Of a DNA stretch of 64,000 nt, positions 26,486 to 44,259 are shown piece by piece. Position 1 is the stretch's first letter, and the number at the start of each line of letters is the position of its first letter. Under the pieces are notes generated by a model. The model made no database searches and was not told where the DNA came from. It saw only the letters and a program-made list of their open reading frames with translations. A program made the position numbers and the translations under genes. Source of the stretch: a bacterium (GTDB lineage: Bacteria > Vulcanimicrobiota > Vulcanimicrobiia > Vulcanimicrobiales > Vulcanimicrobiaceae); assembly GCA_021794205.1 (NCBI GenBank), contig JAJYRH010000008.1, positions 1 to 64,000 of the forward strand, in the 5' to 3' direction.

Positions 26486-29209
26486 ATGAGCGATAGGGGG
26501 GTACGCTATCGTCGCGAGGGTGCGATGCAGAAACCTAATTCCGCCGCAAGCGAGCTGCGGCGCGAGGATCGTGAAAAAGTCCTCGTCGTGGCAGCACCCG
26601 CCGGGTTTGGAAAGAAGCGATTTGCTCGGGAGCGGGCAACGATCTCGTCACGTTCGCTCCTCCTTCGCTGCGCGCGCGGCGAACGCACCAAAGAGGTCCT
26701 CGCGCAGCTTCAAGAGGGGATTGCGAAGCTGCAGCCGGGCGGAAACTGGACGATCGTCCTCGAGGAAGCCGAACGCCTCGAGGGCGCGGGGCTCGCCGAT
26801 GTGATTCGCGAGGTGCTTCCGCATCTCCATGCGGGAGCGCTCATCGTTACGACCGCACGCGCCTCTCCCGCGGAGTTCTCGGCGTTCGCTCCGACCGAAG
26901 TGCGCGTCCTCCGCCGCTCGCGGCTGGTGGTTCAGGTCGAGGATTTTCCGCTCTTCCCCGCTTTCGCGGGGCTCGATGCGTCGACGCAATTTCGTATCGC
27001 AATGTTCGCGCACGGATGGAGCTACCCGATGAAGATCCTCGCCGAGAAAATCGCGAACGAGACCGCACTGCCCTATCCCGCCGATTTCGGCGACGAGATG
27101 TGGCGCGAGGTCTTTGACTGGCTCGAGGCTGCGGTGCTCGCACCCTTGCCGGAAGATATTCGCTCGACTCTTTTAGCGGCAACGACGTTCGGAGATCTTA
27201 CCGTTCGCGATTTCGGCGACTTCGATGGAAGGTCGTCCGAAACCGTGACGCGCGTATGCCATGAATATCAGCTCGCCGACGACGTTCATGAAAGCGTACA
27301 GGTGTTGCCGCTGCTGCGTCGTCTCTTTCATCGGCGATACGGTGCCGAAATGCGCGAAATTGCAAACAGTACGCTCGGAACGACGGCGTCGCTTCGCGAT
27401 GAATTACGGGCGATTCGCGGATTCATCGCAAGCGAGCAACTGGTCAAAGCGGGAGCGCTCGCCGGCGAGCGACACGTGCCGGATTTATCGGATTACGCAT
27501 ATCCGGGGCTCGTACTCGAAAGCATGGAGGGAGCGACGCCGAATTTCGCTGGCTTTCCGTGGCTTTGGCTCGCCATGGTACCCGCGCGCCGTTCATTTTG
27601 CGCCCCCGAGCAGCTCGCCGCCGAAGGGCTCGCAGTGCTGGAAAACGCCGAGAACGACGCGCGTCTGAACGTCGGCTTGCGGGCGGCGACTGCGGGCCTG
27701 CTCGCCGAATCGGGAAAACTCGATCGATCGTGCGAGCTGCTCGGCGAGATTCCTGAAGGTCGATGGGGCGAAGGCGCGCGCCGATACGTCGAACTCTTTA
27801 TTGCGGTTCACGAAAAGCGCTACGACGATGCCTTGGTGTGGTACCGAAAAGGGAGAGCGTTCTTCGGCCGCTCTCCGGCATGGTTCGCGCATATGCAACG
27901 AATCGTGCTTCGCGCGCAAGAGGGCCGAGCGTTAGTCGGCGGGGAGGATCTGTTACTTGAGGATATGCTCGCATCGGCGCGATCCGGACATCTTCCGTAC
28001 GCGGCGGGTGGGGCGATCGCTCACGCGTATTATCTCGCGTGGTTGCAGGGCAATATCGGCGATGAGGCGGCATACCACGCGGCACTCATGCGACAACTCT
28101 ATTGCGGTGGATCGCCGATGCTCTGGCGCGCCGCTGCCGGAAGCTATGGGATCGAGCTCGACGGCTCGGTAAAAAGCGAACCGATCGATGCGATTTTTGC
28201 GCTGCTGTTTGCAGCGGAACGCTCCGAATCGCAGAGAGATCGATGCGCCCTTATCGATCGGGCGATCGCACTCGCCGGCGAACGAGAGCTCTTTCGGCTG
28301 CAAGCCGCTTCCTATATCGCGCGCGCCCTTTGCGACCCGGAGAGCGCTTCTGGGGCACTCGCCGAGGCCGCACGACTGGCAGAGCGCGAAGGCTTTGAAG
28401 ATCTGCGTCGTGGCATTGCGGTCTTCGCGCACGAGCGATGGGCGGAGCGTCCGCGATATATCCGTACCTTCGTCGAGCGCTTCGCACCGACGAAGCCGAA
28501 GCCGCGCGACGAAACGCGGCTGAACTTCGATATCGTGTCCGGACGACTCGCTTCACCCGACGGCACGACGATTCGAACGGCGGAGGGTACGGCGGCGCTC
28601 TTGGCGTTGCTCGCATCCGAAGGCGGCTCGGTTCGCCGCGAGCGCGCGATCGATTTGCTGTGGCCCGATCTCGATCCAGCAGCGGGATCGAATGCGCTTA
28701 AAGCGTCCTTACACCGGCTCCGTCGGCAACTCGGGGACGCCGGGGCCGTGACGCTGCGAGCGGGTGCGTTGTATCTTGGTGCGAACCTCCACGCGAATTT
28801 CGCGGATATTCTCGATTTGGCGGAATGCCGCGATCCGGCTCGCGATGGCGCGGCGATGGCTGCGACACTCGCGAAAATCTCCGAAGAGTCGTGGTCGTGG
28901 GCGCCGTGGGAGTGGTTTGAAGAACGCGCGCGGCGCATCCGCGACGCGGCGCGAGCGATGGGAACGATGCTGATCGCCGCGCAGAGCGCCGCCAAGGATT
29001 GGAATGCTGTCATGACGACCGCCCACGCGATGGTGAAGATCGAACCCTTCGATGAATTTCCGCACGAAGCGCTCGCCCGAGCGTACCTAGCGACGGGGAA
29101 CGCTCCGCTCGCAGCCGAGGAGGTGCGTGGGTATGAACGGCTCCTAAAAGACGAACTCGGCCTCGAGTTGTCGGCGACTATGCGCGCGCTGCTCCATGCG
29201 GAGGGCTAG
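26486..29209 (+). CDS. BTAD/SARP-type transcriptional regulator with a STAND-like N-terminus
   Basis: 907 residues. AAAGGAGG 7 nt before the ATG fixes the start. The N-terminal third resembles the ATPase part of MalT/LuxR-type STAND proteins (VVAAPAGFGKK, IVLEEAERLE), but the Walker A ends in KK rather than KT/KS. A helical TPR-like middle follows. From about residue 690 there is an OmpR-like winged helix (VRRERAIDLLWPDLDP, ALKASLHRLRRQLG) and then a bacterial transcriptional activation domain (about 780-905). It probably binds DNA repeats and activates transcription in response to an unknown signal; the adjacent 21-bp repeats are natural candidates. Confidence 0.87.
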   Translation: MSDRGVRYRREGAMQKPNSAASELRREDREKVLVVAAPAGFGKKRFARERATISSRSLLLRCARGERTKEVLAQLQEGIAKLQPGGNWTIVLEEAERLEGAGLADVIREVLPHLHAGALIVTTARASPAEFSAFAPTEVRVLRRSRLVVQVEDFPLFPAFAGLDASTQFRIAMFAHGWSYPMKILAEKIANETALPYPADFGDEMWREVFDWLEAAVLAPLPEDIRSTLLAATTFGDLTVRDFGDFDGRSSETVTRVCHEYQLADDVHESVQVLPLLRRLFHRRYGAEMREIANSTLGTTASLRDELRAIRGFIASEQLVKAGALAGERHVPDLSDYAYPGLVLESMEGATPNFAGFPWLWLAMVPARRSFCAPEQLAAEGLAVLENAENDARLNVGLRAATAGLLAESGKLDRSCELLGEIPEGRWGEGARRYVELFIAVHEKRYDDALVWYRKGRAFFGRSPAWFAHMQRIVLRAQEGRALVGGEDLLLEDMLASARSGHLPYAAGGAIAHAYYLAWLQGNIGDEAAYHAALMRQLYCGGSPMLWRAAAGSYGIELDGSVKSEPIDAIFALLFAAERSESQRDRCALIDRAIALAGERELFRLQAASYIARALCDPESASGALAEAARLAEREGFEDLRRGIAVFAHERWAERPRYIRTFVERFAPTKPKPRDETRLNFDIVSGRLASPDGTTIRTAEGTAALLALLASEGGSVRRERAIDLLWPDLDPAAGSNALKASLHRLRRQLGDAGAVTLRAGALYLGANLHANFADILDLAECRDPARDGAAMAATLAKISEESWSWAPWEWFEERARRIRDAARAMGTMLIAAQSAAKDWNAVMTTAHAMVKIEPFDEFPHEALARAYLATGNAPLAAEEVRGYERLLKDELGLELSATMRALLHAEG

Positions 29210-29251: not shown

Positions 29252-29461
29252 ATGGTTGATTTTCTGTTTAGCGGCACTGCCCGCGTCATTCGCGCCGTCA
29301 TCGGCGCACTGCTGATTTTTTGGGCCTATCACTCGCTCGCGGGAATCGGGCGCGACATCATCGGCATCGTCGGCCTTATTTTCGTTCTCTCCGGGCTCGT
29401 CAATTTTTGCGGACTCGCACCGCTATTCGGGGGTCCGTTCATGAGGCGCGCCTCCAAATAA
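29252..29461 (+). CDS. small two-helix membrane protein (YgaP/DUF2892-like)
   Basis: 69 residues, two hydrophobic segments with the pattern of the YgaP-type transmembrane domain (RVIRAVIGALLIFW, then GLIFVLSGLVNFCGLAPLFG). ATG 29252 has AAAGGGA about 5 nt upstream. Function unknown; full YgaP carries a rhodanese domain that is absent here. The last 39 bp overlap the decayed kinase gene on the other strand. Confidence 0.7.
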   Translation: MVDFLFSGTARVIRAVIGALLIFWAYHSLAGIGRDIIGIVGLIFVLSGLVNFCGLAPLFGGPFMRRASK

Positions 29462-30127
29462 CGGTTCGAGTTTCCTGACGACGACGGCACCGAGCAGCCG
29501 CTCTACCTCGAGCGGATCGCGGAGTTGCGTTCCGTGCGTCATCGCGGTCGCCGCACCATCGGTGCTTCCGAGCCGAAGCCCTTCGGCAAACGGCAGGCCT
29601 TCGTTGAAGGCGATCGCCAGCGCTGCGACCATGGAATCGCCCGAACCGACGGTGCTGCATGCCGCGACCGCCGGTGGGCGCGCCTCCCAGGCTCCCTCGG
29701 CATCGAGGCCGATCGCCCCATCCTCACCGCGCGAGATCACCACGAAAGCCGCGCCGCGTTCTTGAAGTTCGTGTGCGGCAGCGACAACGCTCGCGGTGTC
29801 GGGTAGAGGTCGCCCCAGCAGTTTCTCCGCCTCTTCGAGGCTCGGGTTCACCAGAAGTGGGCGGGCGGCGAGTGCGTGGGCGAGCGGCGTGCCGGAGGTA
29901 TCGACGATCGTGCGCATGTCGTGCGTGTGGAGCCATGCCACGAGTTCGCCGTCGAGTGCCCGAGGCGATGGATCACACGGCTCGCGTTCGCGCCCTTTCC
30001 TCCCGGATCGACGGCATCGAGCGCGCAGCGATTGATGCCGTCGATCCGGGAGGAGCGACTCCGCAGGGATTGCTGCGTCGATTGCCGGGTTTAAAGTGAC
30101 GGTTCGAATGGTCGGGGCGCCGTTCAC
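29423..30127 (-). pseudogene. decayed PfkB-family sugar kinase (1-phosphofructokinase-like)
   Basis: The first residues, TVTLNPAIDAA, and the last half, including the catalytic GSGDSMVAALAIA, are PfkB/FruK-like. In between, the GGKGANASRVIHRLG signature occurs only in another frame, and roughly 100 residues (the substrate lid region) are missing before LDGELVAWLHTHD. The frame as a whole stays open for 234 codons but would give a scrambled N-terminus. A perfect 21-bp inverted repeat (29998-30018 with 30034-30054) lies at the damage site. A functional kinase is unlikely. Confidence 0.75.
29998..30054. repeat. perfect 21-bp inverted repeat in the kinase pseudogene
   Basis: Arm 1 at 29998-30018 and arm 2 at 30034-30054 are exact reverse complements, with a 15-nt loop. 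Arm 2 read on the minus strand codes the VDPGG of the PfkB signature, so arm 1 looks like an inverted copy of coding DNA. No T-run follows on either strand, so it is not an ordinary terminator. Confidence 0.9.
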
Positions 30128-30136
30128 GCGTCGATC

Positions 30137-30586
30137 TCATTCTTCCGAACGCGTCCCCCGATGAGCGTTCCAAGAAGAATCGGCGAATGCTCGGTGCTGT
30201 TTGCTCGGCCAAGTGATCAGCAGTTGAATGCGCGGAGCATCGGGTGCTCGCATAAACGAAATGAGGACGCGTTCGAGGCCCCACGGAAAGCGGAAGCGGT
30301 AATCGAATTCGACGGTTCCATGGCCGCCCGGTGCGGCGAGCTCTGCAAACCGCCCGTGGAACTCCGCATCCTGCGTGCACGGTGCGACGTCGCGAAAGAA
30401 GTTGCGCCCGATCTGTGCTGGGGCGAGGCGTCGCGAATAGCCTGCTTCCGTTCGGTTGTAGCGAAGAATCGTCCCATCGAGATCGAGCGTGATGATCCCA
30501 ACGGGCAGCGCGTCGATCTCCTCGCGCCCCATCTCCTCGATCCGCTCGAGCAGAGCCCGGCGCTCGCTCTCCGATGTGGGAAGCAT
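30137..30586 (-). CDS. photoactive yellow protein (PYP)-like PAS protein
   Basis: 149 residues, a single PAS domain. It aligns without gaps to PYP through its core: Tyr43, Glu47, Ser51, Arg53 and Cys70 match PYP Tyr42, Glu46, Thr50, Arg52 and Cys69. The segment IGRNFFRDVAPCT is almost the same as the PYP chromophore loop. In PYP the Cys carries p-coumaric acid by a thioester and the Tyr/Glu hold its phenolate, giving blue-light sensing. No tyrosine ammonia-lyase or coumaroyl ligase lies in this window. A 20-residue charged tail extends beyond PYP. Cytoplasmic; partner unknown. Confidence 0.82.
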   Translation of the reverse strand: MLPTSESERRALLERIEEMGREEIDALPVGIITLDLDGTILRYNRTEAGYSRRLAPAQIGRNFFRDVAPCTQDAEFHGRFAELAAPGGHGTVEFDYRFRFPWGLERVLISFMRAPDAPRIQLLITWPSKQHRAFADSSWNAHRGTRSEE

Positions 30587-30709
30587 GATGTCGCTCTCTA
30601 TCTGCCTCCGTTCGACGTATTCCTGGATGCAGGGGTTCGCTTAAATTCGAACGCGCTTGGCCTTCACGATCGAAGGACAGGGCGGGGGCGTCCAAGAAGG
30701 CGGCGTGTG

Positions 30710-31666
30710 ATGCGCACGTTAGCGTTGCTGCTGCTCGTCGTCGCCTTTTTCGTTCGAACGGGCGCTCTCTCGCTTGCGGCCTCCGCCGCCCCCGCCCCGC
30801 CGCACCTTTCATGCGCGGCCGTCATCGCTCGCTTGAAGGATCCCCGATTTGCCGCCCAGGCGAAGGGTGCCGGTGACCTTTTATGCATCGACGGCCCGAT
30901 CGCCGATGTAAAGTTCGCGCCGCCACACGGACGCGGTACGAACGCCGGGAACGAGCACTACTTTCTGAACTACGGCGACAGCGTCTCGATCCGAGGATGT
31001 TCGCGTCCCGGGCCTCATCCTGTGGTGACCGTGCTGTCGATCGAGAACGTCCTTGCCGGAAAAGCTCCGGAGCCCAGCGACGAAGTCTCCTGCGCGTCCA
31101 AAACGTTCACCGCCCACAGACCCGAGAGTCCGCCATCGCCCTTCGTGGCTATGTTTAAGCGTTTTGCCGCGGTCATTTTAGGGCTTTTCAACGACCACAC
31201 GCTCTCGCTTACGACCGACGTTTCCCGTGGAGCAGAAGCGGCTCGACTTCGCTCGTCCTCGCTTTCAAATCCACAGTTCATACCTCAAACGCTCGACCGG
31301 ATTTCCATCGGTTGGGCGGGAGGCACGCCGCCCTTTCGGGTCGTTCTTTCCAGCCCTCGTGGAGCCGTCGCTACGCAGGTCGTCACCTCCGGGCGGTCGC
31401 TTATGAATATCCCGGTAGGGCTGTCGGCAAAGCGCATCGAGGTAACGATCGTCGATGGATCGGGTTCTCGCATCGATTGTGCGATCGAACGCTCGAAAGA
31501 GCCGCCGCACGTGCCATGGGCGTCGAGTTCCGAATGGAACGCCGCGTCGCTACTCCGTTATAAAAATCGCCATTGGCGCCTGTATGCATACACCTTAATC
31601 GCGCCCGATCGAGCGACGAATGTCGTGGCATCGCTATTGGCAGGGCGCTTGAGCGGTGAATATTAA
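30710..31666 (+). CDS. uncharacterised secreted protein, first gene of the CHASE2/M48 operon
   Basis: 318 residues, not recognised. N-terminal signal peptide (RTLALLLLVVAFFV, cleavage near the SAAPAPP region). Five or so Cys in the mature N-terminal half (SCAAV, LLCIDG, RGCSRPG, VSCASK) suggest disulfides. A Ser/Pro-rich linker and a hydrophobic patch (AAVILGLF, about residue 155) follow. The C-terminal half has a beta-rich look (TLDRISIGWAGGTPPFRVVLSS). ATG 30710 is chosen, with AAGAAGG upstream. The stop overlaps the CHASE2 gene by 11 bp. Confidence 0.7.
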   Translation: MRTLALLLLVVAFFVRTGALSLAASAAPAPPHLSCAAVIARLKDPRFAAQAKGAGDLLCIDGPIADVKFAPPHGRGTNAGNEHYFLNYGDSVSIRGCSRPGPHPVVTVLSIENVLAGKAPEPSDEVSCASKTFTAHRPESPPSPFVAMFKRFAAVILGLFNDHTLSLTTDVSRGAEAARLRSSSLSNPQFIPQTLDRISIGWAGGTPPFRVVLSSPRGAVATQVVTSGRSLMNIPVGLSAKRIEVTIVDGSGSRIDCAIERSKEPPHVPWASSSEWNAASLLRYKNRHWRLYAYTLIAPDRATNVVASLLAGRLSGEY

Positions 31667-33110
31667 ATCCATAACGGCGGCGCGGAAACGTCTAATCGGT
31701 CGATTGAAAAAAATCGTTACGGCGGCGTCGAAGCGCCTAATCCATCTATTGAAAAAAAAAGCCAGCGCTATTTGGCGCGACGCTCTCGGAATTTTACGCG
31801 ACTTTAAAAAACTGGTCGCAATCCTAGCGATGCTCTTTTTTTTCGCCCTATGGATTTCTCCTTTGCACAACGACGGGCCGTTATACTCGATTACCCAATC
31901 GAATCAAAGCTTCTATGACTCGGCGAGCCAGCAAAATGAATGCAAGCATGTCCGTTTCACGAACGTTCAAAACGACAGGGCGTGCGAATTCAGAAAAACC
32001 ATTTGGGTACGCCTCGATCCAAACTTCTACAAGTACGGCGCGCTCTATCGTCGCTCCGTAGGCCATCGCAGGCTCGCCCGGCTTCTGACGTTATTGGCTC
32101 GAAGAAATCCCAAAGTCGTCATAGTCGATGTTGGCTTAACGATGCCTCGTGGCGGCGGTCGACGCGACGCGGTGCGTTCGTTTTTCGATCGAGTAGCTCG
32201 GACGCCGTGTCGAAAAGGCGTATGCACTAGGTGGATTTTAGCGTCGACCGTTCGGACGAGGGGCAAGCCCGCCCATTCCTGCGTGTGGGGCGCTTCTCCG
32301 CTTAGCGCTGCGACGCTCAGCCGATCGGCGAACAAAATATTTATGGCAAGCTCGGTAGGCGAGGTTGGGGAATCGAGCGGCTACGAACGTTTTGTTGGAA
32401 TTGCGACCACGTGTAAGAACGCACGAAATTCGGGATCGAGTGTTCGATTGAACGCCGCGGTTTTGGCGGCGGAGATTATGGGAACCAACCGTCGAGCGCC
32501 GAATCCAACCGACCCTACAATCATTCGAAACGAGCGGGCGAGGTGGGGCGACAAGCAGCGCATATTTTATCGATGGCGGGAAAAATACGTCTGTCATCAG
32601 AGCGACGCGTGCCTCAGCGCGACCGGAATTCTCGAAATGGGCGCTTCGAGCGCTCCCTACGCGTCCCTGAAAAATGCGGCCGTTTTCGTCGGTCCGGGGC
32701 GCCGGTCGGCGGGTGCCATCAGCGATATTCACATAACTCCGTTAGGACTCATGCCCGGAACCTTGGTGTTAATAAATGCATATCGAACCCTACTGAGGGG
32801 CGGGGTGTACGTGGTGCCGCTTCAAAAAATCCTCATCGTCATTATTGGTCTCGCTATAGCGGTTTCCGCGGAAATGAAGCATTCGGAAAATATTGTGCTG
32901 CTTCTCGGGTGGTTATTTAGCATTTCAATCGCGTTGTCGATCGGGTTTCTATTCGAACATCAAACATATATCGAGTTTGGGTTCCTCTTCGCGACCGTCT
33001 CGATTAGCAGTGCGTTGACCGTATTCATTGGGGCGATGGAACCGCTGTTCCGTGAGCACGTCCCTCGACTTATGGGAAGGAATAAAAGTGCGAATGCGAC
33101 TTCCGACTAG
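31656..33110 (+). CDS. CHASE2-domain membrane protein lacking an output domain
   Basis: 484 residues. Lys/Arg-rich N-terminus, one membrane segment near 50-68, an extracytoplasmic CHASE2-like domain (about 70-395) with VVIVDVGLT near 155 and the closing KNAAVFVGPG...SDIHITPLGLMPGTLV, then three membrane segments (about 395-470). CHASE2 domains sense unknown extracellular signals. Here the chain ends 20 residues after the last helix, with no kinase, cyclase or GGDEF, so signalling must go through partners. GTG start at 31656, 11-bp overlap with the previous gene. AT-richer than surrounding genes. CHASE2 and CHAT genes often neighbour each other. Confidence 0.78.
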   Translation: MNIKSITAARKRLIGRLKKIVTAASKRLIHLLKKKASAIWRDALGILRDFKKLVAILAMLFFFALWISPLHNDGPLYSITQSNQSFYDSASQQNECKHVRFTNVQNDRACEFRKTIWVRLDPNFYKYGALYRRSVGHRRLARLLTLLARRNPKVVIVDVGLTMPRGGGRRDAVRSFFDRVARTPCRKGVCTRWILASTVRTRGKPAHSCVWGASPLSAATLSRSANKIFMASSVGEVGESSGYERFVGIATTCKNARNSGSSVRLNAAVLAAEIMGTNRRAPNPTDPTIIRNERARWGDKQRIFYRWREKYVCHQSDACLSATGILEMGASSAPYASLKNAAVFVGPGRRSAGAISDIHITPLGLMPGTLVLINAYRTLLRGGVYVVPLQKILIVIIGLAIAVSAEMKHSENIVLLLGWLFSISIALSIGFLFEHQTYIEFGFLFATVSISSALTVFIGAMEPLFREHVPRLMGRNKSANATSD

Positions 33111-33945
33111 CTTCCGGTGCCGAGCGTTCGCGCTCGTTCTGCTAGCGCTATCGGCCGGCTCCTCGCGGGCGGCCCTTTCGAAGAACGCTCCCCCGGCGTT
33201 TTCGGCAGAACGCGTGCAAAGCGCCGAGATCTTTCAGGACCTTTTGCTCAAACATCAAGTCGTGATGCACTCTCGGTACTACCCGCTATTGCGACACATA
33301 CGGCAAAAGTTGCTTCGCGCCGCGGACGTGCGCGCGTCGATGGACAAATTCGGTTATACCTTTAATTACGTTATCGTGCGCGACCCGGAGCCGAATGCTT
33401 TCGCCTCTCCCGGAGGCATTATATTCATCACGGATTCTCTCTTGCATCTCTTGCATAACGATCAGGAGTTATACGGAGTGCTGGCCCACGAAACGTCGCA
33501 CGTATTGCTTTCTCATGCGGTCGAGCGTCAACGCGAGCAGAATTTACTGGCGGCTGCGGCGATTACGGCAATGATGTTTGAAAAGTCGAAAGCGTTGCAG
33601 TTTGCGACGGGTATGCTCGGGAGTTATGCGTTTTTAAATTACGATCGGCAGCAGGAACTCGCTGCGGATCACGAAGGAACCAAGATTCTCTCGGAGATCG
33701 GCGTGAACCCCTGGGGGTTGAGTTGGGCCCTCGAAGCGCTGAAGGCAAAGACCGGGGGATTGGGTTTTGAGTCGTACTTAAGCGATCACCCGTCTTTTCG
33801 GCAACGTCAGGAAAAGATAAAGTCGTTTATCGAAGATTCTCCAAAATTACGGAGAGCGAACGAGCGCGAACCGTCCTCCCACGGTCTCCGGACGAATTAT
33901 CCCGGAACTACGTTTCTCGTTATGTTCCCGCCGGGCTCGAATTAA
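33088..33945 (+). CDS. secreted M48-family zinc metalloprotease
   Basis: 285 residues with a signal peptide (AFALVLLALSAGSSRAA). Zinc site H134-E-T-S-H138, and Glu190 in the QELAADHEG helix as third ligand, the usual M48 layout. It resembles periplasmic M48 enzymes such as BepA and LoiP, which degrade misassembled envelope proteins, but has no lipobox Cys and no TPR tail. GTG 33088 has GGGAAGGA 6 nt upstream; the start overlaps the CHASE2 gene by 23 bp. Its 3' end overlaps the convergent CHAT gene by 26 bp. Likely a working protease within the island's system. Confidence 0.88.
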   Translation: MRMRLPTSFRCRAFALVLLALSAGSSRAALSKNAPPAFSAERVQSAEIFQDLLLKHQVVMHSRYYPLLRHIRQKLLRAADVRASMDKFGYTFNYVIVRDPEPNAFASPGGIIFITDSLLHLLHNDQELYGVLAHETSHVLLSHAVERQREQNLLAAAAITAMMFEKSKALQFATGMLGSYAFLNYDRQQELAADHEGTKILSEIGVNPWGLSWALEALKAKTGGLGFESYLSDHPSFRQRQEKIKSFIEDSPKLRRANEREPSSHGLRTNYPGTTFLVMFPPGSN

Positions 33946-36900
33946 ATCCATCGCCGAACACGATATACGGCCCCCAGTTCACGGGGTTCGAGGCGATCGC
34001 CGCGCTTCCGCCATTGGGGTCGCCGCGTCGAGGGTGGCTGATCATTTCGATTTGGGTGCGACGAAGCGCAACTGCGGGCGGCTCTCCCTTGGCCAAGCGG
34101 CGAAATAGCAATCCCGATGCGACGCTTCCGCGAAGATCGGTAATTTGCCAGAGCGTGAGAGCTACCGAACGAGCTCCCGCCCCCATAAATGCACGTCCGA
34201 ATTCGGCCTCTCCCTCGTGGGCGCTCGTGTACGAAAACCCGCTGTCGCAGGTGGAGAGCATGACCATTCGCGCGTTGAGGCGGAGCTTCATGACGTCGCT
34301 CACTCCGAGAAGCCCGGATCCCGTGCTGAGGTTCGGATGAGAGAGCACGATATATGGGCGCGGGCCCCGGTTCGGTCTCGCCGCCACCACGCCGTGGGTG
34401 GCAAATAATATATAACGGTATCGTGCGAGTAAGCCATCCTCGTTTAAATGCATAAGAGATGCGTCGCTTGCTTTGGCTCGCGATAAAATCCGAAAATTCC
34501 CTCGAGAGGGGAAATAGTGCGCCGCGCGGCGGGCCTCAATTGCCGTATCCGGAAGGGGTGGCAGCCGAAGGGTTAGGGCGTTGCCGCTTCGGGTTGGGTC
34601 GTTCGTGCGCCCGGACGCCGAAAGAAGCGGATCGGCGAACGCGACGAACCAGGATCGATCCCGCTTGGCCTTTTCGGCGAGCTCCGCTCGCCGTATGAGG
34701 GGAAGGAGAGAAGGGGAAGAGAGATAGGCCAGATCGATGCTCTGCGCGAGGTACCGATGTCGCCAACGTAGCGTCGCATAACTGATACGATAGAGAAAAC
34801 CCGTTGGAATTACGAAGACGTGGCGATACCGCGCGAGCGAGCCGGCAATCGACGGCGGCAATAGGAGCCGCGCGAGCGCTTGCGCCGCTTCGTCGTAACC
34901 GGCGCGCTCCTTCGCCTCGACCCGACGGCGGGCTCGCCCGGAGCGTTCGATGCGACGTACGATGGTATTTATCGCATCTACCCGGCGACGGAGGGTTGGA
35001 ACGATATCGGTCATCCGTACGCCGCGTATTGACCTTGGAGTGATGATCCACACGTTTAGGGAGTTTCCCGATATATCGTCGACGAGCATCGCTTCGTCCG
35101 ACGTTAAGCTTCGTTGCCAACTGCCTGGATGGGAAAACGCTTGGGGGAGCATTATTGCCGAAAGCTGAGGAAATCGAACCGAGAGCGCGCTCTCCTCGCG
35201 ATGCAGCTGCACCCGCACGGCGGCAGCGTCGACGGCATTTTTCGCGTTAATATATCGTTCGGCGAGCGAGCGCAAACGATCGAGCGTCGTATTGGGGACC
35301 CCCGCAATGTGGAGGGCTCCGCTCCGCGATATGGCATCGAACGCACGCCGTCCCACATTGTCGTTGAATAATTGGACGGCGAGTCGCTCGAAATCGGGAT
35401 CCGCACGGTGGCCGATCATGAGCTGAGATTCGCAGTCGGAATAAATGGCGTTCAAGCTCGAGACCCCAAGGTCGATCGAATCGATTCGTAACTGTGGGTT
35501 CCACCGCGCATAAAATGCGGCTCGAGAGCGCTCTTTTTCTAAGCGAAGCAGCGAAGAGGCACAGGTGCGTGCTGCCGCGACGGGAGAATCAGCGGCCTCG
35601 TCGGCGAGGACTTCGACGCGCGCGGCGATCCAGCGCGATCTCCAATCGATGTTTGCCGCCCAGCGCACGGCGCTCCTCGCATCCCGAAGCGCTCCACGAA
35701 CGTCGCGACGAGCCAGGCGTTCGCGGGCTCCTTCGGTAAAGGAAACGACAGCCGCCTGGAGATCGCCGTTACGTGCCTCTCGGAGGGCGGCACGCTCGAA
35801 ACGCGAGGCGCGACGATCCGCTCTCCCCCCGCGATCGACTTGTGCGTCGAGAAGCGCCGCGCTGTCGAATGCATCGACCGAGGCCAATAACCGTCGGTAA
35901 CGGCGCACCTTCGTGAAATTCAGCAACTTCCATTGAGTTAATGCACTGCGATAGTAGCCCCTCGCGCAACGCGGCATGTTGCCGCATAAAAGCGGTCGTA
36001 CCGTGCGTGCGGTCACGTAGGCGGTAAAGTATCCGAGGGCCCTCCAAAACGGCGTTACCGAGCGGCCTTTCAATTGAAAGAGTGCTTGGCGGCTTGCGGA
36101 GGCCGCCCCAATTCCATCGCCGGTGTCGAGCGAGGCCATGGCCGTGAGATAATCCAGCCAGATGCGTTCGTCCGTCGGTAATCCGCTTCGGGCCGATTGC
36201 AGGCTGGTGAAGATCGCCGCAGAGGCGCGAGCGTGTCCGCCTTCAAGTAATGCCTCGCCGGCATCCAAATTGCAAAGGCGACGAACGGAAGTTCGTGACG
36301 CTTGACGACAATCGGCGAGAGTCGTTAAGGCGGCGGTGGCGCGGCGGAGTTGAAGGTTCGCATCGCCGGAGGCATAGGCCAAGCGTTCGACGACCGAAGA
36401 TTCTTCGAGACGGTCGACCGGGCGCACCCGAAAGCGCGGATTCTTCAGTACCCCGTAGGCCTGGGAGAACGTCGACAGAGCCGACACGTAGTGATGAAAG
36501 CCCCACGCGACTTCCCCCGAATTTTCCAAAACGGAGAGTTCGGCGACGTTCAATTGGGGGTCTTTGAGGATCATTGCCGCCGCCGTCGCTGCGTGCGGGG
36601 CGGCCTTGGAGTACTCGTGCAGGTCGAGAAATGCGCGAGCGATGCCGTTCTGCAAGCGGCCCTGCCAGTAATAATCTATGGCGTGCCCATTACCGGAGAC
36701 GAACGAGAGGCCCCTGGTAAATATGCCGACGGCTTCTTTCGCGCGGCCGGCCCGGAGCAGCGTCGCTCCGGCCCCGTAGGAGATCGAAGCCGCGGAAATA
36801 TCGGGCGTCCCCGATGAAAGGAGAGCGAGGGCGCGCACGGCATACGGAACGGCGTCGGCGATGCGTCGGCCGGCGATCTCGACCCGGGCCATGCCGATAT

Positions 36901-37135
36901 CGCAGCGAGCCTCGTCCAAACGGTCGTTTTGTCCGTCGGCGTCCCGAATGCAGGAGCGAAAGCCGGTCGCGGCACGCTGCAGGTGATTGTCGGAATAGGC
37001 GGCCAGCGCGGCGAGTCGCTCGGCTCGCGGCGACCCCAAGAGGGTAGCGTCGTCGAGCGGAATCGGTTGGGCAGATCGCGTCAATAAGAAAATAGCGAGG
37101 CACGTTGCAGCGACTGCTACAAACCGACGGTGCAT
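33920..37135 (-). CDS. exported TPR-CHAT (caspase-like) protease
   Basis: 1071 residues. N-terminal signal or anchor (RFVAVAATCLAIFLLT), then a long helical TPR-like array to about residue 620, and a CHAT domain at about 690-1065. The catalytic dyad is present: His914 in LFATHGV and Cys963 in STCDSG. CHAT domains are relatives of caspases and separase, usually activated through partners bound by their repeats. Export is the odd part, since well-studied CHAT effectors such as TPR-CHAT (Csx29) work in the cytoplasm. Start shares one base with the preceding gene's stop (TAATG). Confidence 0.85.
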   Translation of the reverse strand: MHRRFVAVAATCLAIFLLTRSAQPIPLDDATLLGSPRAERLAALAAYSDNHLQRAATGFRSCIRDADGQNDRLDEARCDIGMARVEIAGRRIADAVPYAVRALALLSSGTPDISAASISYGAGATLLRAGRAKEAVGIFTRGLSFVSGNGHAIDYYWQGRLQNGIARAFLDLHEYSKAAPHAATAAAMILKDPQLNVAELSVLENSGEVAWGFHHYVSALSTFSQAYGVLKNPRFRVRPVDRLEESSVVERLAYASGDANLQLRRATAALTTLADCRQASRTSVRRLCNLDAGEALLEGGHARASAAIFTSLQSARSGLPTDERIWLDYLTAMASLDTGDGIGAASASRQALFQLKGRSVTPFWRALGYFTAYVTARTVRPLLCGNMPRCARGYYRSALTQWKLLNFTKVRRYRRLLASVDAFDSAALLDAQVDRGGRADRRASRFERAALREARNGDLQAAVVSFTEGARERLARRDVRGALRDARSAVRWAANIDWRSRWIAARVEVLADEAADSPVAAARTCASSLLRLEKERSRAAFYARWNPQLRIDSIDLGVSSLNAIYSDCESQLMIGHRADPDFERLAVQLFNDNVGRRAFDAISRSGALHIAGVPNTTLDRLRSLAERYINAKNAVDAAAVRVQLHREESALSVRFPQLSAIMLPQAFSHPGSWQRSLTSDEAMLVDDISGNSLNVWIITPRSIRGVRMTDIVPTLRRRVDAINTIVRRIERSGRARRRVEAKERAGYDEAAQALARLLLPPSIAGSLARYRHVFVIPTGFLYRISYATLRWRHRYLAQSIDLAYLSSPSLLPLIRRAELAEKAKRDRSWFVAFADPLLSASGRTNDPTRSGNALTLRLPPLPDTAIEARRAAHYFPSRGNFRILSRAKASDASLMHLNEDGLLARYRYILFATHGVVAARPNRGPRPYIVLSHPNLSTGSGLLGVSDVMKLRLNARMVMLSTCDSGFSYTSAHEGEAEFGRAFMGAGARSVALTLWQITDLRGSVASGLLFRRLAKGEPPAVALRRTQIEMISHPRRGDPNGGSAAIASNPVNWGPYIVFGDGFNSSPAGT

Positions 37136-38301
37136 TACGTTTTAATAATTTTCGTCGATGATGCCTTGATGGGAAGGCAGGGGTGATCCGCCGCATCGTT
37201 CCAAATGAGGTTGCCGATGGTAGGGGTATAGTGCACGAAGGGAAGTAGCGGGAACGTGATTACCCAAATATATTTCGCTCCCGGCCCGGCCGGAAGACCG
37301 GTAATATAGTTTAATCCAAGATCTTCCGACCGGCTCACGGAGGATACGTCCGTTCGTTTGCCGGTAAAATCGCGAACGTCCGGTGCTTCGGCATCGATAC
37401 CGGATTCATCGACGAATCCACCTCGTCTATATGAGAGGTGAACGAGAAATTGATCGGGGCGGATCGCGATCGGCCGGCGAACGGATATCAAGAGACGTAC
37501 GTGCAAATACGGCTGGTAATTGACGGTTTCGCCGGTCCCCGTCATCCACGTTCGTTCAATTCTACAAACCAATGGGAAAACGTGTCGATCGTTCCGGTTC
37601 GGCCAGACCTCGACGGCGCCGCCGCGGGCTTCCGGGCCCGCGTACGCGGCAAAACGCTGCATGACGGCGGCGACGGCATCGCTCCGAAAATTGAGTCGTT
37701 CCGGCTTTACGATCGCGCGAATGGTGACGAGCCGCGCGTCGCCCATTCTTTTTGCGACGGCAGCCGCGCGATCGCGCGCGACGGGCAGAAGCGAGAGCGT
37801 TCCGGTGTTGTCGATATAAATGGTTGCCGACTTCGGTAACGCCGAGTCTCGCCAATTCGGAACGCCGCAATTCGGCCAGGGCGCCCCGCCCGTAATATCT
37901 CCCGTCGTGAGGGAGTAGACGCTCTGGTGGGAGAGCGATGCAACGGCCATCGCAAATGGGAACCCGCCTTGTTGCGGATCGTACGACAGGGCTGGAATAG
38001 TGAACGTTATCGTCAACCTGCGACGCTGTTCGGTTGCGGCCTGACGTTCGAGCTCGCGACGCCATTGGGCGATAAATCGATCCGCATGCCGTTTTTGATA
38101 TTTCGAGCGACAGAACATTAAAAGTCCGTAATCGCGCACGAAGCGGTCGTCCTGAAGGATGAGTGGAAGTTGTCGGACCTCCAAACTGACGTAGGTCGCA
38201 TACGTTTGCCGCAAGGTCTGCGCGTCGGCCACCTGCGCGCTCGAAGTTGCGCTCGCGGCGAGCATTAAAAGTAGCGATAACGTTAATGTTTTGGCAAGCA
38301 C
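37135..38301 (-). CDS. secreted protein of unknown family, paralogue B
   Basis: 388 residues, not recognised. Signal peptide (TLTLSLLLMLAASATSSAQ). It shares spaced motifs with the upstream gene: PWPNCGVPNW, TIYIDN, a VTIRAIVKPE-like strand, a PLVCRIE segment and a C-terminal HPCLP. The conserved Cys suggest shared disulfides in a beta-rich fold. Translation is coupled to the CHAT gene. By position it is a likely partner, substrate or inhibitor of that protease, but nothing in the sequence says which. Confidence 0.72.
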   Translation of the reverse strand: MLAKTLTLSLLLMLAASATSSAQVADAQTLRQTYATYVSLEVRQLPLILQDDRFVRDYGLLMFCRSKYQKRHADRFIAQWRRELERQAATEQRRRLTITFTIPALSYDPQQGGFPFAMAVASLSHQSVYSLTTGDITGGAPWPNCGVPNWRDSALPKSATIYIDNTGTLSLLPVARDRAAAVAKRMGDARLVTIRAIVKPERLNFRSDAVAAVMQRFAAYAGPEARGGAVEVWPNRNDRHVFPLVCRIERTWMTGTGETVNYQPYLHVRLLISVRRPIAIRPDQFLVHLSYRRGGFVDESGIDAEAPDVRDFTGKRTDVSSVSRSEDLGLNYITGLPAGPGAKYIWVITFPLLPFVHYTPTIGNLIWNDAADHPCLPIKASSTKIIKT

Positions 38302-39443
38302 GTTGTAAAGTTACCCCAGCGTAGCGTTAAAAGGTGGGCGCTTCGGTGAACTCCATGAACTTGGAATGAAATAATCCAGCGAGCGCTCTGACCTTTGTCT
38401 AGTTCGATCAACTGAACGAAGCCGAAGTCCTGTCCGAGTTTGATCTGTGGAATCGAGGTTGTGCTTTGGCCTGGATCGTTGGGGGTGAGCGACTGAAGGG
38501 CTGCGTCGATGGCATCGCGACCGCTCATAAGGTCGTGGCCGAGATTATCGTAAAATGGAAGCAGTTTCGAATATCCGAAGGAGGTAAATGTGGCTTTGTT
38601 CGTATGAATAATTGCGTCGAACTCCTCGGGATCGAGGAGCAGTCGTTCGTTCGCCGTCATGACGATGCGCGCGTGCACGTACGAGTTCCCATCTAAGGCG
38701 ACCGGAGTCAGCCATGGGGCTCCCTTTATGAAGCACGTTAACGGTGAGGATTTGGCGACGGCAAAAGCCCCGGATGCGGTCCAATGTTGGAGCGCGACGG
38801 TGTGTCGATTCCCACCGAGGACGGTAAAGGCGTCGAGCATGGCGTGCGCCACGACGTCCTGGGGGTCGGATGCATCGACGGAGACGATCTTTGCGCGAAT
38901 GCGAAGCTGCGTGTTCTTTGCGAGTCGGGCTTTGCTTATAGGCACGTTGACGGCGCGCAGCGACTGAGGGTTGTCGACGACGAGGGTCACGTCTTGCGGG
39001 AACGCTCCGTCTTTCCAATCGATCGGTCCGCACGTGTGCCACGGAGTTTTTTCGTCGAGGCCGCTGAGGTCGGTGCCGAGCAGAACCGAGGACTCGTCGT
39101 AGGCGAGGGTCGGCCCCACGGTCAGGCGATTCCCCTCTCGCTCCAGATGGATGTTCCGCGAATACGTGACGAATGAGGGGGCTCTTTTTAGGGTTTCGAC
39201 GAGCGCAGCGGGGGATGTCGTTTTGGCGGATGGGTTTGCGGGCGTTGCCTTCGAGCAGCCGAAGAGCGAGGCGTAGTCCGCGGTGAAGGTTTTATTCGAA
39301 GCGATATTTGGGTTTTCGGAAAGCTCGGCGGCGACGATCCGGTGGTAGAACCGTTGTGGATCGAAGGACACACGAGAATGCGCGGTTACGTCAGTCGTAG
39401 TCGCGAACACGGCGATAAGAAGGCAAAGCACAACCTTTCGCAC
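38283..39443 (-). CDS. secreted protein of unknown family, paralogue A
   Basis: 386 residues with a signal peptide (KVVLCLLIAVFATTTDV). Divergent paralogue of the next gene: PWHTCGPIDWKD, TLVVDNPQSL, LRIRAKIV, PLTCFIK and the C-terminal TTCLPKH fall at matching places. Overlaps paralogue B by 19 bp and begins the CHAT operon. I know of no named family with this pattern. The promoter should lie within 39444-39509. Confidence 0.72.
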   Translation of the reverse strand: MRKVVLCLLIAVFATTTDVTAHSRVSFDPQRFYHRIVAAELSENPNIASNKTFTADYASLFGCSKATPANPSAKTTSPAALVETLKRAPSFVTYSRNIHLEREGNRLTVGPTLAYDESSVLLGTDLSGLDEKTPWHTCGPIDWKDGAFPQDVTLVVDNPQSLRAVNVPISKARLAKNTQLRIRAKIVSVDASDPQDVVAHAMLDAFTVLGGNRHTVALQHWTASGAFAVAKSSPLTCFIKGAPWLTPVALDGNSYVHARIVMTANERLLLDPEEFDAIIHTNKATFTSFGYSKLLPFYDNLGHDLMSGRDAIDAALQSLTPNDPGQSTTSIPQIKLGQDFGFVQLIELDKGQSARWIISFQVHGVHRSAHLLTLRWGNFTTCLPKH

Positions 39444-39509
39444 CGCGAAATAGTACCCGCGCCGCGATTTATTTTCCTCTAACCGTCGGCACCATAGTAT
39501 TAGGGGCGC

Positions 39510-41060
39510 CTACGACGGATATCCGGTAATGCGTCGGATAGCGCGATAGAGCGGCGCTAAACGACCGTATAAGCGTCGGTAGACGCTCTCGTAGAGCTCG
39601 TTGTAGAGTTCGTGCGTTTTCCGATCCGGCTCGAACGTGCGCGCGCTGCGGGTCATCGTTGCCGCCGCCGTCGCAAAATCGGCGTGCCAGCCAAGGGCAA
39701 CGGAGGCGTCGATCGCCGCCCCGAGTCCCGACGTTTCGTAGAGATGCGGGCGGGACGTAGGAAGCCCGAAGACGTCGGCGGTGAGTTGTAGCGCGGCATC
39801 GCTCTGGGAGCCGCCGCCCGCGACGCGCAGGCTCGTAACCGATACGCCGCTCCGGCGTTCGATACGTTCGAGCCCGTCGCGTAACGCGAATGCGAGCCCT
39901 TCGAGAATCGCGCGATAGAGGTGCGCCCGTGTGTGCACGTCGCCGAAGCCGACGATCGCGCCCTTCGCTTCGGGCATGCGAATGCCGGGGGTCCAATAGG
40001 GCTGGAGCATCAGGCCCATCGAGCCGGGCGGAACCGACTCCACTAGTGCATCGAAATAACTCTCGACTGGAGCCCCGCTCTCAGCTGCCGCTCGTTGTTC
40101 GAGATGGCCGAACTGTTCTTTAAACCAGTTCACCATCCAATAACCGCGAAAAATTTGCACTTCGGTTGTATACGCGTGCGGTACCGCCGCCGGATAGGGT
40201 GGAACGAACGGCGTGGCCTCAAGATAGCGGTGCGAGAGCGTATTGATCGTTGCGGTGGTTCCATAACTGAGCGCGCCGAGCGTCGGCACGTTACAACCCG
40301 CACCGAGCACTTCGCAGGCCTTATCGGCGGCGGCCATAACGACCGGCGTTCCGCGCGGAATTCCGGTTGCGGCGGAGGCCGCATCGTGAATCGCTCCGCC
40401 GATCGCTCCGGGCTCGAGCAATTGCGGCAACATCGACGGGCGTATCGGCATCGCGTTCCATTTCCAATCGCTCGGCTTCGCCCACGTGAGCGCGCGAAAA
40501 TCAAAGGGCAGATAGCCGACTTGCGAACCGACGGAATCGATGAATTCGCCGGTGAGCCGATAGAGCAGGTAGCCGGAGAGGAGAAGATATTTATCGGTCC
40601 GTTCCCAAATCTCCGGTTCGCACTGTGCGATCCAGTTCGCCTCGGCTTCGCGTTGAAAATACCGCACCGTGTCGCCGACGCCCGCGAGCCCGAATGCAAT
40701 GCGCCAATGCAGCGGTAGCGCCGGTATCTGCGGGCTCTTCCGTTGATCGAGCCAGGTGATCGCCGGGCGCAGCGGCCGCCCGGAACGATCGAGATTCACC
40801 ACGGTGCCGCGCTGCGTCGTCACGGCGACGGCGGCGATACGCTGCGCGAATGAAGCTTGCTCGGCGAGCAGTTCCCGGCACGCTTGCGAGAGGCTCTCCC
40901 AAAATGCGTTGGGATCGTGTTCGTGCCACCCGGGCGCCGAGATCGTGTAATCGTCGAGCGGTACGCGCGCCTTGGCGACGAGCGTACCGCGCGCGTCGAA
41001 AAGTAACGCACGCACGCTCTGCGTGCCGTTATCGATCGCGAGAACGAGATCGCGATTCAT
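39510..41060 (-). CDS. FGGY-family carbohydrate kinase
   Basis: 516 residues, complete. N-terminal phosphate loop LAIDNGTQSVRALLFD, middle TWLDQR, and the C-terminal family signature region (RVAGGGSQSDAALQLTADV). FGGY kinases phosphorylate glycerol, gluconate, xylulose and similar. Sugar specificity is not readable, but its overlap (ATGA) with glpD makes glycerol or a glycerol-like polyol a fair guess. Third gene of an AGPS-like, GlpD, kinase operon. Confidence 0.87.
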   Translation of the reverse strand: MNRDLVLAIDNGTQSVRALLFDARGTLVAKARVPLDDYTISAPGWHEHDPNAFWESLSQACRELLAEQASFAQRIAAVAVTTQRGTVVNLDRSGRPLRPAITWLDQRKSPQIPALPLHWRIAFGLAGVGDTVRYFQREAEANWIAQCEPEIWERTDKYLLLSGYLLYRLTGEFIDSVGSQVGYLPFDFRALTWAKPSDWKWNAMPIRPSMLPQLLEPGAIGGAIHDAASAATGIPRGTPVVMAAADKACEVLGAGCNVPTLGALSYGTTATINTLSHRYLEATPFVPPYPAAVPHAYTTEVQIFRGYWMVNWFKEQFGHLEQRAAAESGAPVESYFDALVESVPPGSMGLMLQPYWTPGIRMPEAKGAIVGFGDVHTRAHLYRAILEGLAFALRDGLERIERRSGVSVTSLRVAGGGSQSDAALQLTADVFGLPTSRPHLYETSGLGAAIDASVALGWHADFATAAATMTRSARTFEPDRKTHELYNELYESVYRRLYGRLAPLYRAIRRITGYPS

Positions 41061-42622
41061 GCCGGCGCTCCGTAATAGGCGGCGTGGAGGGCTCGGTAGG
41101 CGTGCGTTTCACGTTCGAAGCGCGCGTCGTCCCAGCCGAGTTCTTGCATGCAGAGGTTGCGAAGACGCGCCGACCACCGTTGCTCGCAATGTGGGGCGAC
41201 GAGCCCGAGCCGCGTGCGCCGCAGCAGCAGGTCATCGAGATGCTCCACGCTTTCATTGCGGGCGGCCCATCGCAGTTCGGCCCAGAGCGTCGAGGTGCCG
41301 TCGATACTTTCGCGATCTCCCTGCGGAGCGAAATCCAGCAGAGACTGCGCCGCATTACCGTAGCAGCCGGCGAGCCGTCGCCGCTGGGCGAGCGAGAGCT
41401 CGGGCGCGTGCGGGAACTCGCAGCGTTCGAACGCCGGGCGCATGGCGAGATCGAAGGAGTCGAGCCGGTCGGCAACCGCGCGTAGTGCCGCGAGTGCCAT
41501 TGGCCGGAAGGTGGTGAGTTTGCCGCCCGTGACGGTGAGGAGGCCGCGTTCGCTCCAAATCGCACTATCGCGAGGCTCTTTCGACGGATCGCGCTCTCCG
41601 CTATGAATGACGGGGCGCACGCCTGCGAACGTCGCGATCGCGTCTTCGCGTTGGATGGCGCTGTGGGGAAACTGATAGGCGAGTGCTTCGAGAAGATAGC
41701 GCGTTTCGTCCTCGGAGATCGAGGGTTCGCTGCCTCGATCGGTGGTATGGTCGACATCGGTCGTGCCGACGAGCGTTACGCCGAGCCACGGATAGGCGAA
41801 AACGGGGCGACGGTCGCGGGGATGCGCGAACGCGATCGCCTGCGCGAGCGGCAAACGCCAATCGGGGAGAATGAGATGGCTACCGCGGAGCGGGCGCAAT
41901 TTCGCCGCGACCCCCAACGTCGATCGTAGCGCATCGGCGTTCGCGCCCCCGGCATTGATCACTGCGCGCGCGCGCACCTCCGCGCTTCCGCCGCCGATCG
42001 TGTCGGTCGCGCGCACGCCGACCGCGCGTCCGTCGCGTTCGAGCAGCTCGCGTGCGTCGATATAATTGAGCGCCGTCGCGCCGGCGGCACGCGCTTCCTG
42101 AATGAGTCGGAGCACGAGGCGCGCGTCGTCGGTGGTCGCGTCGAGATAGTCATGTGCTCCGAGCAGCCCGGCGCTCTCGATCGTCGGAGCGAGAAACAGC
42201 GTTTCGGCGGCATCGAGTCGGCGGTGCGTTTTTCGCCCGGCGAAGAGATCGTAGAGCGCGAGCCCGAGGCCCAAGGTTCGCGGGCTCGGCGTGCCGCCGG
42301 GGTAGTGCGGCATGAGAAAGTGCATCGGGTCGACGAGGCCGGGCGCATCACGCAGCAACGCTTCCCGTTCGCGCACCGATTCACGCGTGAGCGCGAATTT
42401 GCCCTCTTTGAGATAGCGCAATCCGCCGTGCACGAGTTTTGAAGAACGACTCGATGCACCCGAAGCGAAGTCGCTGCGCTCGAGAAGGACGGCGCGGAGC
42501 CCGCGCCGCGCGGCTTCGAAGAGAATGGCGGCGCCGGTAATGCCGCCGCCGATGACGAGGATGTCCCACGGTTCGTCGAGCCGCGCGATCGCGGCGGCGC
42601 GCGCGCTTGTGGGCGTTAACAC
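41057..42622 (-). CDS. glpD: glycerol-3-phosphate dehydrogenase (FAD, GlpD-type)
   Basis: 521 residues. FAD-binding ILVIGGGITGAAILFEAARRG, then LLERSDFASGASSRSSKLVH and GGLRYLKEGKFALTRES, all highly typical of GlpD; the C-terminal alpha domain is present. It oxidises glycerol-3-phosphate to dihydroxyacetone phosphate and feeds quinones at the membrane. Start: GTG at 42622, overlapping the preceding gene's stop by 7 nt, since longer frames run into that gene. Ends overlapping the kinase start (ATGA). Confidence 0.92.
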   Translation of the reverse strand: MLTPTSARAAAIARLDEPWDILVIGGGITGAAILFEAARRGLRAVLLERSDFASGASSRSSKLVHGGLRYLKEGKFALTRESVREREALLRDAPGLVDPMHFLMPHYPGGTPSPRTLGLGLALYDLFAGRKTHRRLDAAETLFLAPTIESAGLLGAHDYLDATTDDARLVLRLIQEARAAGATALNYIDARELLERDGRAVGVRATDTIGGGSAEVRARAVINAGGANADALRSTLGVAAKLRPLRGSHLILPDWRLPLAQAIAFAHPRDRRPVFAYPWLGVTLVGTTDVDHTTDRGSEPSISEDETRYLLEALAYQFPHSAIQREDAIATFAGVRPVIHSGERDPSKEPRDSAIWSERGLLTVTGGKLTTFRPMALAALRAVADRLDSFDLAMRPAFERCEFPHAPELSLAQRRRLAGCYGNAAQSLLDFAPQGDRESIDGTSTLWAELRWAARNESVEHLDDLLLRRTRLGLVAPHCEQRWSARLRNLCMQELGWDDARFERETHAYRALHAAYYGAPA

Positions 42623-44259
42623 AATTTTCCCGGATTCATGATCGCTTCGGGATCGAAATCGCGAAAGAGCGCGCGCATCGCAGCGATGCCGAGCGGTCCC
42701 TTCTCCGCAACGAGGTAGGGACGATGGTCGGTGCCGACGCCGTGTTGGTGGCTGATCGTGCCGCCGTTGGCGACGATCGCTTCGCTGACCGCCGCCTTTA
42801 GCCGTTGCCAGCGCTGCAGGTTCTCTTCGTATGTCGGCGCGATGCGAAAAATAAAGGTGCTGTACACGCTCGATCCTTGAGCGTAGACGTGCGAGAGATG
42901 CGTGTAGCCGTGCATCGCTTCTCCCCCGAACGAGGACGAGGCCGCGCCCTCGATCGCGGCGACCATCGCCCGAACGCGCGGCCAGTCGACCGCGGTCTCG
43001 ACGGTATCGACCGCGTAGCCGCGCTCCCATAAGGCATTGCGAAGGTAGACGCCGCGAAAACGATTCTTTTGCCAACGCCTTCCGAGTTGCGTGCCGAAAT
43101 AGAGGCCGCCGCAATCGCCGGCGATATCGCGCGCCGCGGCGAGCGCGGAGCGGGCGCCGTCGGGATCTCCGGTAACGCCGACGATGAGCAGCGTGCGTTC
43201 GTCGCCGTAGCCGCGGAGCTTCAAATAGCGCTCCAGCAGCGCGAGCGCGGCGCCGCCGTTTGCGAGCCGCAAGGTGGTGAGCGTCTCTGCGGCGTTGGCG
43301 AGACGGATCATCGAGAGCGCGAGCCCCGCACGTGCAAGCGAGCGTGCTGCCGCTTCGGCGCGCTCCCATTGCGGAAAGAACCAGCCGTGAAAGGATTCGG
43401 ATTTCGGAAGCGGGCGCACGCGGACGCTCGCCTCGGTGAGGATGCCGATGCGACCTTCGGAGCCGAGAACGAGTTCGCGCAGATCGATACCGGCAGCGGA
43501 GGCGGGAACGGTGGGAATCGCGAGCGTGCCGCTCGGCGTTTCGATGCGCCCACCCGCGAAGAGTTGCTCGATCCGGCCATAGCCGAGCGACTGTTGCCCG
43601 GAGGATCGCGTGACCACCCAGCCTCCGAGCGTCGAGTATTCGAAGGACTGCGGAAAATGCCCGAGCGTGTAGCCGCGGACCCGGAGCTGCGCCTCGAGGT
43701 CGGGGCCGGCGACGCCGGCACCGAAGGTGGCGAGCCGACTCTCCTCGTCGAGATCGAGCAATCGGCGCATGTGCGCCAGCGAAACGGTCAGGACCGGACG
43801 ATCCGTGCGCTCCGGAGGATTGATATGGCCGACGACGCTCGTTCCACCGCCGTAGGGAATGACGCACGCACCGGCATGGCGCGCGTAGTCGAGGAGCTCG
43901 CGGACGTCGTGCGACGATTCCGGAAAGGCGACGCCGTCGGGAAGCCGGTCGATGCGCCCGAAGCGAAGCGCGAGCCAATCGGGGAGGCTCTGGCCGCGCG
44001 CGTGGAGGACGCGCGTCGCCGCCGAGCTATCGATCGCTGGGTGCGGCGGCAAACGCGAGGGCTCGGCGTTTGCGACGAGATGTTCGAAGTGCGCGTCGCG
44101 CGGAGGCACGCCCTCGCCGAGGCGCTCGCGGAGATACGCAAGCGCGCTCTCGGGAAGATCCAGGCGGACGGCCTCGTCACCCCACCCGTTCCATCGACGC
44201 ACGCTCGCAGTATCGGCGTTTATCCTCGGCGAGACCTGCCGTTCGAGGACGAAATGCAT
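42616..44259 (-). CDS. FAD-binding oxidase, alkylglycerone-phosphate synthase (AGPS)-like
   Basis: 547 residues of the VAO/PCMH flavoprotein family. N-terminal RRWNGWGDEAVRLDLP, FAD-binding VIPYGGGTSVVGH and STLGGWVVTRSSGQQS, and a C-terminal HQHGVGTDHRPY match AGPS-type enzymes better than lactate or glycolate oxidases. AGPS makes ether-linked alkyl-DHAP; bacterial homologues are few. Whether this one makes ether lipids is an inference. First gene of an operon with glpD and an FGGY kinase, all on C3-phosphate chemistry. ATG 44259 has only a weak ribosome-binding site. Confidence 0.82.
   Translation of the reverse strand: MHFVLERQVSPRINADTASVRRWNGWGDEAVRLDLPESALAYLRERLGEGVPPRDAHFEHLVANAEPSRLPPHPAIDSSAATRVLHARGQSLPDWLALRFGRIDRLPDGVAFPESSHDVRELLDYARHAGACVIPYGGGTSVVGHINPPERTDRPVLTVSLAHMRRLLDLDEESRLATFGAGVAGPDLEAQLRVRGYTLGHFPQSFEYSTLGGWVVTRSSGQQSLGYGRIEQLFAGGRIETPSGTLAIPTVPASAAGIDLRELVLGSEGRIGILTEASVRVRPLPKSESFHGWFFPQWERAEAAARSLARAGLALSMIRLANAAETLTTLRLANGGAALALLERYLKLRGYGDERTLLIVGVTGDPDGARSALAAARDIAGDCGGLYFGTQLGRRWQKNRFRGVYLRNALWERGYAVDTVETAVDWPRVRAMVAAIEGAASSSFGGEAMHGYTHLSHVYAQGSSVYSTFIFRIAPTYEENLQRWQRLKAAVSEAIVANGGTISHQHGVGTDHRPYLVAEKGPLGIAAMRALFRDFDPEAIMNPGKLC

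Follow-up and report, generated by a model that had tools for sequence, protein, structure and literature searches.

The reading frame studied here raises the question of whether a small protein of an Eremiobacterota genome is a photoactive yellow protein (PYP) capable of binding p-coumarate and, if so, where the chromophore would come from. The window, the whole stretch of DNA analysed, spans 64,000 nucleotides of a 2.2-Mb draft genome that is about 90% complete; the nearest named relatives of this genome are Eremiobacterota metagenome assemblies. A first-pass annotation of the window had proposed a PYP-like protein keeping the chromophore cysteine. The coordinates it gave are exact, and the gene, whose strand it left unstated, is on the minus strand:

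30137..30586, minus strand: pyp (PYP-B, the window copy), a 149-aa single-domain PYP-family PAS domain

The frame matches the TIGR02373 photo_yellow profile with E=6.7e-25 (87.6 bits), and all 33 of its PDB sequence matches are PYPs or PYP-derived tags, led by the Ppr PYP domain (1mzu, E=1.2e-19). In the tree it is nested among Cys69-bearing PYPs from Myxococcota and Eremiobacterota. An AlphaFold model (alignment input of 35 Eremiobacterota homologues) has a mean pLDDT of 85, with low confidence in the C-terminal ~20 aa. Its top Foldseek match is again 1mzu (TM 0.91 by target, 1.6 Å); ranks 1–40 are PYP or PYP-derived entries, and other PAS domains appear only after these. An ordinary PAS domain resembling PYP by chance could also produce the match to Pfam PAS (8e-7, 29 bits), but the general PAS S-box model scores just E=0.1 against 6.7e-25 for the PYP model, and both tree and fold place the protein with PYPs. 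We consider chance resemblance extremely improbable, and the ordinary-PAS reading was rejected on profile scores, PDB matches, tree and Foldseek.

The TIGR02373 equivalog has a curated cut-off of 143 bits, which the window protein at 87.6 bits does not reach, so we assign it to the wider PYP family only. Myxococcal homologues with an intact Cys69 likewise score under this cut-off, the Halorhodospira halophila and Caballeronia PYPs score above it, and the profile is matched by 35/35 aligned Eremiobacterota homologues. Membership of the PYP family has been defined by homology to PYP rather than to other PAS domains, together with Cys69 accompanied by Tyr42, Glu46 or both (PMC9664959, Xing et al. 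2022). Profiles, PDB matches, tree and fold all relate the window protein to PYP and not to other PAS domains, and all three residues are there. Taken with the model, these comparisons leave us highly confident that the frame is homologous to PYP, and sequence, tree and predicted fold support the proposed chromophore cysteine and pocket.

Pocket positions are numbered here after H. halophila PYP. The pairs that the first-pass annotation had aligned by eye (Tyr43/42, Glu47/46, Ser51/50, Arg53/52 and Cys70/69) are all correct in a 66-row alignment, and Phe62, Phe63, Val66, Ala67, Pro68, Phe92, Tyr94 and Phe96 are also conserved. The broader statement that every main pocket residue is present stands for Tyr42, Glu46, Arg52 and Cys69, with Ser at position 50, but not for Met100, which is Trp, or Trp119, which is Gln. 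Across 38 Eremiobacterota homologues Tyr42 is found in 38/38, position 46 holds Glu 37 times and Gln once, and Cys69 is found in 37. Position 100 in the same set is Trp in 26, Phe in 5, His in 4 and Lys/Arg in 3; Met is found in 0/38, and Trp100 is therefore a lineage trait. Replacement of Met100 and loss of Trp119 are both habits of the lineage. A structure prediction moving Cys70 away from the pocket had been named as a refutation; because Foldseek ranks 1–40 are all PYP or PYP-derived, the predicted fold gives no hint of such a displacement. One PYP homologue (G077, L068 8851-9249) carries Trp in place of Cys69 and is a natural chromophore-less relative.

The closest match in both sequence and fold is the Ppr PYP domain of Rhodospirillum centenum (1mzu), which shares Tyr42, Glu46, Ser50, Arg52, Cys69 and Phe96 with the window protein. 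Ppr differs in carrying phytochrome and histidine kinase modules on the same polypeptide and in having Met100, whereas the window protein is free-standing with Trp100. H. halophila PYP (1nwz/2phy) shares the fold, Tyr42, Glu46, Arg52, Cys69 and the Cys loop VAPCT; from it to the window protein Thr50 becomes Ser, Met100 Trp, Trp119 Gln and Phe28 Val, and the window pyp is without pCL or TAL in its operon. The idea that the Thr-to-Ser change may shift the absorption agrees with measured Ser50 PYPs, those of R. centenum Ppr and S. ruber, which absorb at 432–434 nm and so point to a blue shift to about 432–434 nm (PMC12826048). Such a shift is already documented: among 12 measured PYPs, Ser50 proteins absorb at 432–434 nm and Ala50 proteins at a mean of 451 nm, although exceptions exist (PMC12826048). 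With these maxima published, the spectral suggestion is an application of known data.

The reported lack of chromophore genes in the window is correct and applies to the genome as well, at its estimated completeness of about 90%. The suggested genome search for tyrosine ammonia-lyase (TAL) and coumaroyl-CoA ligase was negative, with neither TAL nor a PYP-type ligase (pCL) found. The only aromatic lyase is a histidine ammonia-lyase (HAL; hutH 662 bits, cut-off 539) that adjoins hutU and hutI and has a Ser-His selectivity pair, which we take to separate HAL from TAL. The TAL candidate on contig C32 was rejected as this hut-cluster enzyme. Nothing in the genome exceeds the TIGR02372 pCL cut-off, and the pCL candidates were rejected as generic or benzoate/anthranilate-type ligases. 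Two aryl-CoA-ligase-like enzymes encoded on contigs C31 and C5, one anthranilate/benzoate-CoA-ligase-like and one MbcS-like, are possible chromophore activators. With neither TAL nor PYP-type pCL, the chromophore would need an outside source.

The same pattern recurs among the 22 PYP genomes checked: nearly all have HAL-type lyases only, G089 has none, and 0 of 22 has a PYP-type p-coumarate ligase over cut-off. A second lyase in G085 (L109) was rejected as a TAL for its altered MIO motif; it is a secreted-looking aromatic-lyase homologue whose motif reads GEG. G117 has six PYP-like genes, a sole aromatic lyase of HAL type and a PYP-type pCL-like gene (L111 1501-2661; 302 versus a cut-off of 334.7 bits). 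In G118 (L053 6581-8820) a further PYP gene follows immediately after genes for an acyl-CoA ligase and an MFS transporter, possibly a route by which a PYP chromophore is taken up and activated.

A cell that cannot make p-coumarate might instead fill the pocket with a free ligand or with a different thioester, aryl or cinnamoyl. The hut-cluster HAL as sole aromatic lyase, the absence of a TIGR02372 pCL over cut-off and the character of the candidate ligases all lean this way. We nevertheless regard a different ligand as unlikely: the phenolate-binding Tyr42 and Glu46 are conserved throughout, the genome is incomplete, and absence of these genes nearby is normal, since just 5% of pyp operons include TAL and 32% include pCL (PMC12826048). 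Given these frequencies, missing TAL and pCL make a weak argument against p-coumarate.

PYPs have already been reported in Eremiobacterota (PMC12826048), and WPS_26150 is the PYP of Vulcanimicrobium, an organism phototactic to 470 nm light (PMC9758169). The new parts are therefore the unusual gene neighbourhood and the absent pigment-synthesis gene. The window protein shares phylum and family with these reported PYPs; it differs as a paralogue present in 6 genomes belonging to a single genus, with a seventh genome retaining a remnant, and in its glycerol-3-phosphate/kinase operon context. PYP-like genes are present in 23/149 Eremiobacterota genomes, with up to 6 matches per genome. A light-harvesting gene search of the host genome did not find a type II reaction centre.

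The neighbourhood of pyp comprises the following features:

29423..30127, minus strand: pfkB-type sugar kinase starting 9 bp past the pyp stop, probably a pseudogene
30587..39509: 8.9-kb block that separates pyp from the FGGY kinase and contains, among others, genes for CHASE2, M48 protease and CHAT-domain proteins
39510..41060, minus strand: FGGY carbohydrate kinase resembling glycerol kinase/xylulokinase; in four sister genomes it immediately precedes pyp
41057..42610, minus strand: GlpD-like glycerol-3-phosphate dehydrogenase/oxidase, inside a longer open frame (41057-43978)
42616..44259, minus strand: FAD-linked oxidase (AGPS-like), closest solved relative alkyl-DHAP synthase

The order FAD-linked oxidase, GlpD-like, FGGY kinase, pyp is found in G069, G062, G066 and G067, and an intact pfkB lies 3' of pyp in G069, G066, G067 and G070; pfkB was not seen in G062. 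The stop codon of FGGY and the start of pyp share nucleotides in G066 and G067, which suggests that the two genes are translationally coupled there. Comparison of these gene orders indicates an ancestral short operon of AGPS-like oxidase, GlpD, FGGY kinase, pyp and pfkB. The FGGY gene occurs without an adjoining pyp in other genera, so pyp joined an older operon. Against the intact G069 copy, the window pfkB has gained 4 bp and lost about 280 bp, changes that jointly restore the frame; its open frame is thus misleading, and the sequence is probably that of a pseudogene for a dead enzyme. The 4-bp insertion also completes a perfect 21-bp inverted repeat within pfkB (29996-30049, minus strand; TCCTCCCGGATCGACGGCATC / GATGCCGTCGATCCGGGAGGA), which fits either a quasi-palindrome (templated) mutation or an artefact of assembly.

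Genes of the 8.9-kb block are absent between FGGY and pyp in G069, G062, G066 and G067. G070 has genes from both ends of the block, located at the matching junctions of two contigs. Presence in the window genome and apparently in G070, and not in the closest relatives, would imply repeated insertion or repeated loss; no convincing direct repeats were found at the block ends. No histidine kinase, GGDEF/EAL or MCP gene, none of which is strictly required, is among the annotated pyp neighbours. A 907-aa BTAD-domain regulator (26486-29209, plus strand), which converges on the pyp operon and is retained in the sister genomes, is a possible partner.

The host genome carries a second PYP:

Contig C5, about 235014-235385: second PYP, with Ala50, Leu52 and Trp100

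It is about 54% identical to the window protein, with the same triad and Trp100, and differs in Ala50 and Leu52 as against Ser50 and Arg52; in the alignment Ser50 marks the window copy and Ala50 the C5 copy. The C5 copy's neighbours thiC, DUF190, crcB and two sortilin/BNR-repeat-type proteins are kept in genera g1, g7, g19, g24 and g31. The window copy is found in six genomes of one genus and forms a fully supported clade; in a seventh genome, G064, it is cut down to codons 117-149, a C-terminal remnant. dN/dS is about 0.18 for the window copy (versus G069) and about 0.04 for the C5 copy, which evolves about four times more slowly. The C5 copy is the older, syntenic one, the window copy genus-specific and faster-evolving, and both are under purifying selection.

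The faster evolution of the window copy, the disrupted operon and the near loss of pyp in G064 would also suit a PYP-derived redox or electrophile sensor acting through Cys70, or a decaying gene nearing loss, with photochemistry absent in either case. Purifying selection argues against this, as does a dN that reveals no acceleration in the gene's own lineage (G000-G062 0.120 versus G069-G062 0.114). The pocket residues are retained, and the window protein lacks the second cysteine of Methylobacterium Ppr, a proposed redox type (PMC9664959). We judge sensing without light, or decay, to be very unlikely.

From sequence and model, the window protein is probably a working single-domain p-coumarate photoreceptor, the main doubt being its chromophore. 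Counted against this reading are the TIGR02373 score, the lack of TAL, PYP-type pCL and an adjoining signalling partner of known type, and the broken operon with its gutted pfkB and the G064 remnant. p-Coumarate would be taken up, activated by an aryl-CoA ligase and attached as a thioester to Cys70, its phenolate hydrogen-bonded by Tyr43 and Glu47. On absorbing blue light the chromophore would isomerise from trans to cis and take up a proton from Glu47, and the protein would partly unfold into a signalling state to be read by a partner; Ser50 would set a blue-shifted maximum, predicted near 433 nm, with that of the Ala50 copy further to the red. In H. halophila mutants, loss of Met100 slows recovery. 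With Trp at this position, recovery would be changed and probably slower, in keeping with the role proposed for Met100 (PMC9664959).

We infer a functional link between pyp and the glycerol-3-phosphate/sugar-kinase operon, for which adjacency alone is insufficient as proof. This context was not found among the pyp operon partners listed in PMC12826048 and PMC9664959, and a literature search for PYP, glycerol kinase and operon, its scope excluding subscription papers, found nothing. Each cell may hold two PYPs of differing colour, with light sensing tied to glycerol-3-phosphate/ether-lipid metabolism through a scavenged chromophore. This proposal, which leans on Ser50 versus Ala50 (both with Trp100) and on FGGY-pyp translational coupling in relatives, is distinctly unlikely as a whole.

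These results add, in Eremiobacterota, a PYP lineage that is both deep and multi-copy, one copy being inherited with conserved neighbours in five genera. Synteny of the C5 copy implies more vertical inheritance than the published view of a Myxococcota origin with scattered horizontal transfer suggests. Photocycle tuning and PYP-based tags would benefit from natural Trp100 PYPs, and chromophore acquisition by PYP becomes a directly testable question in carriers that lack TAL or pCL.
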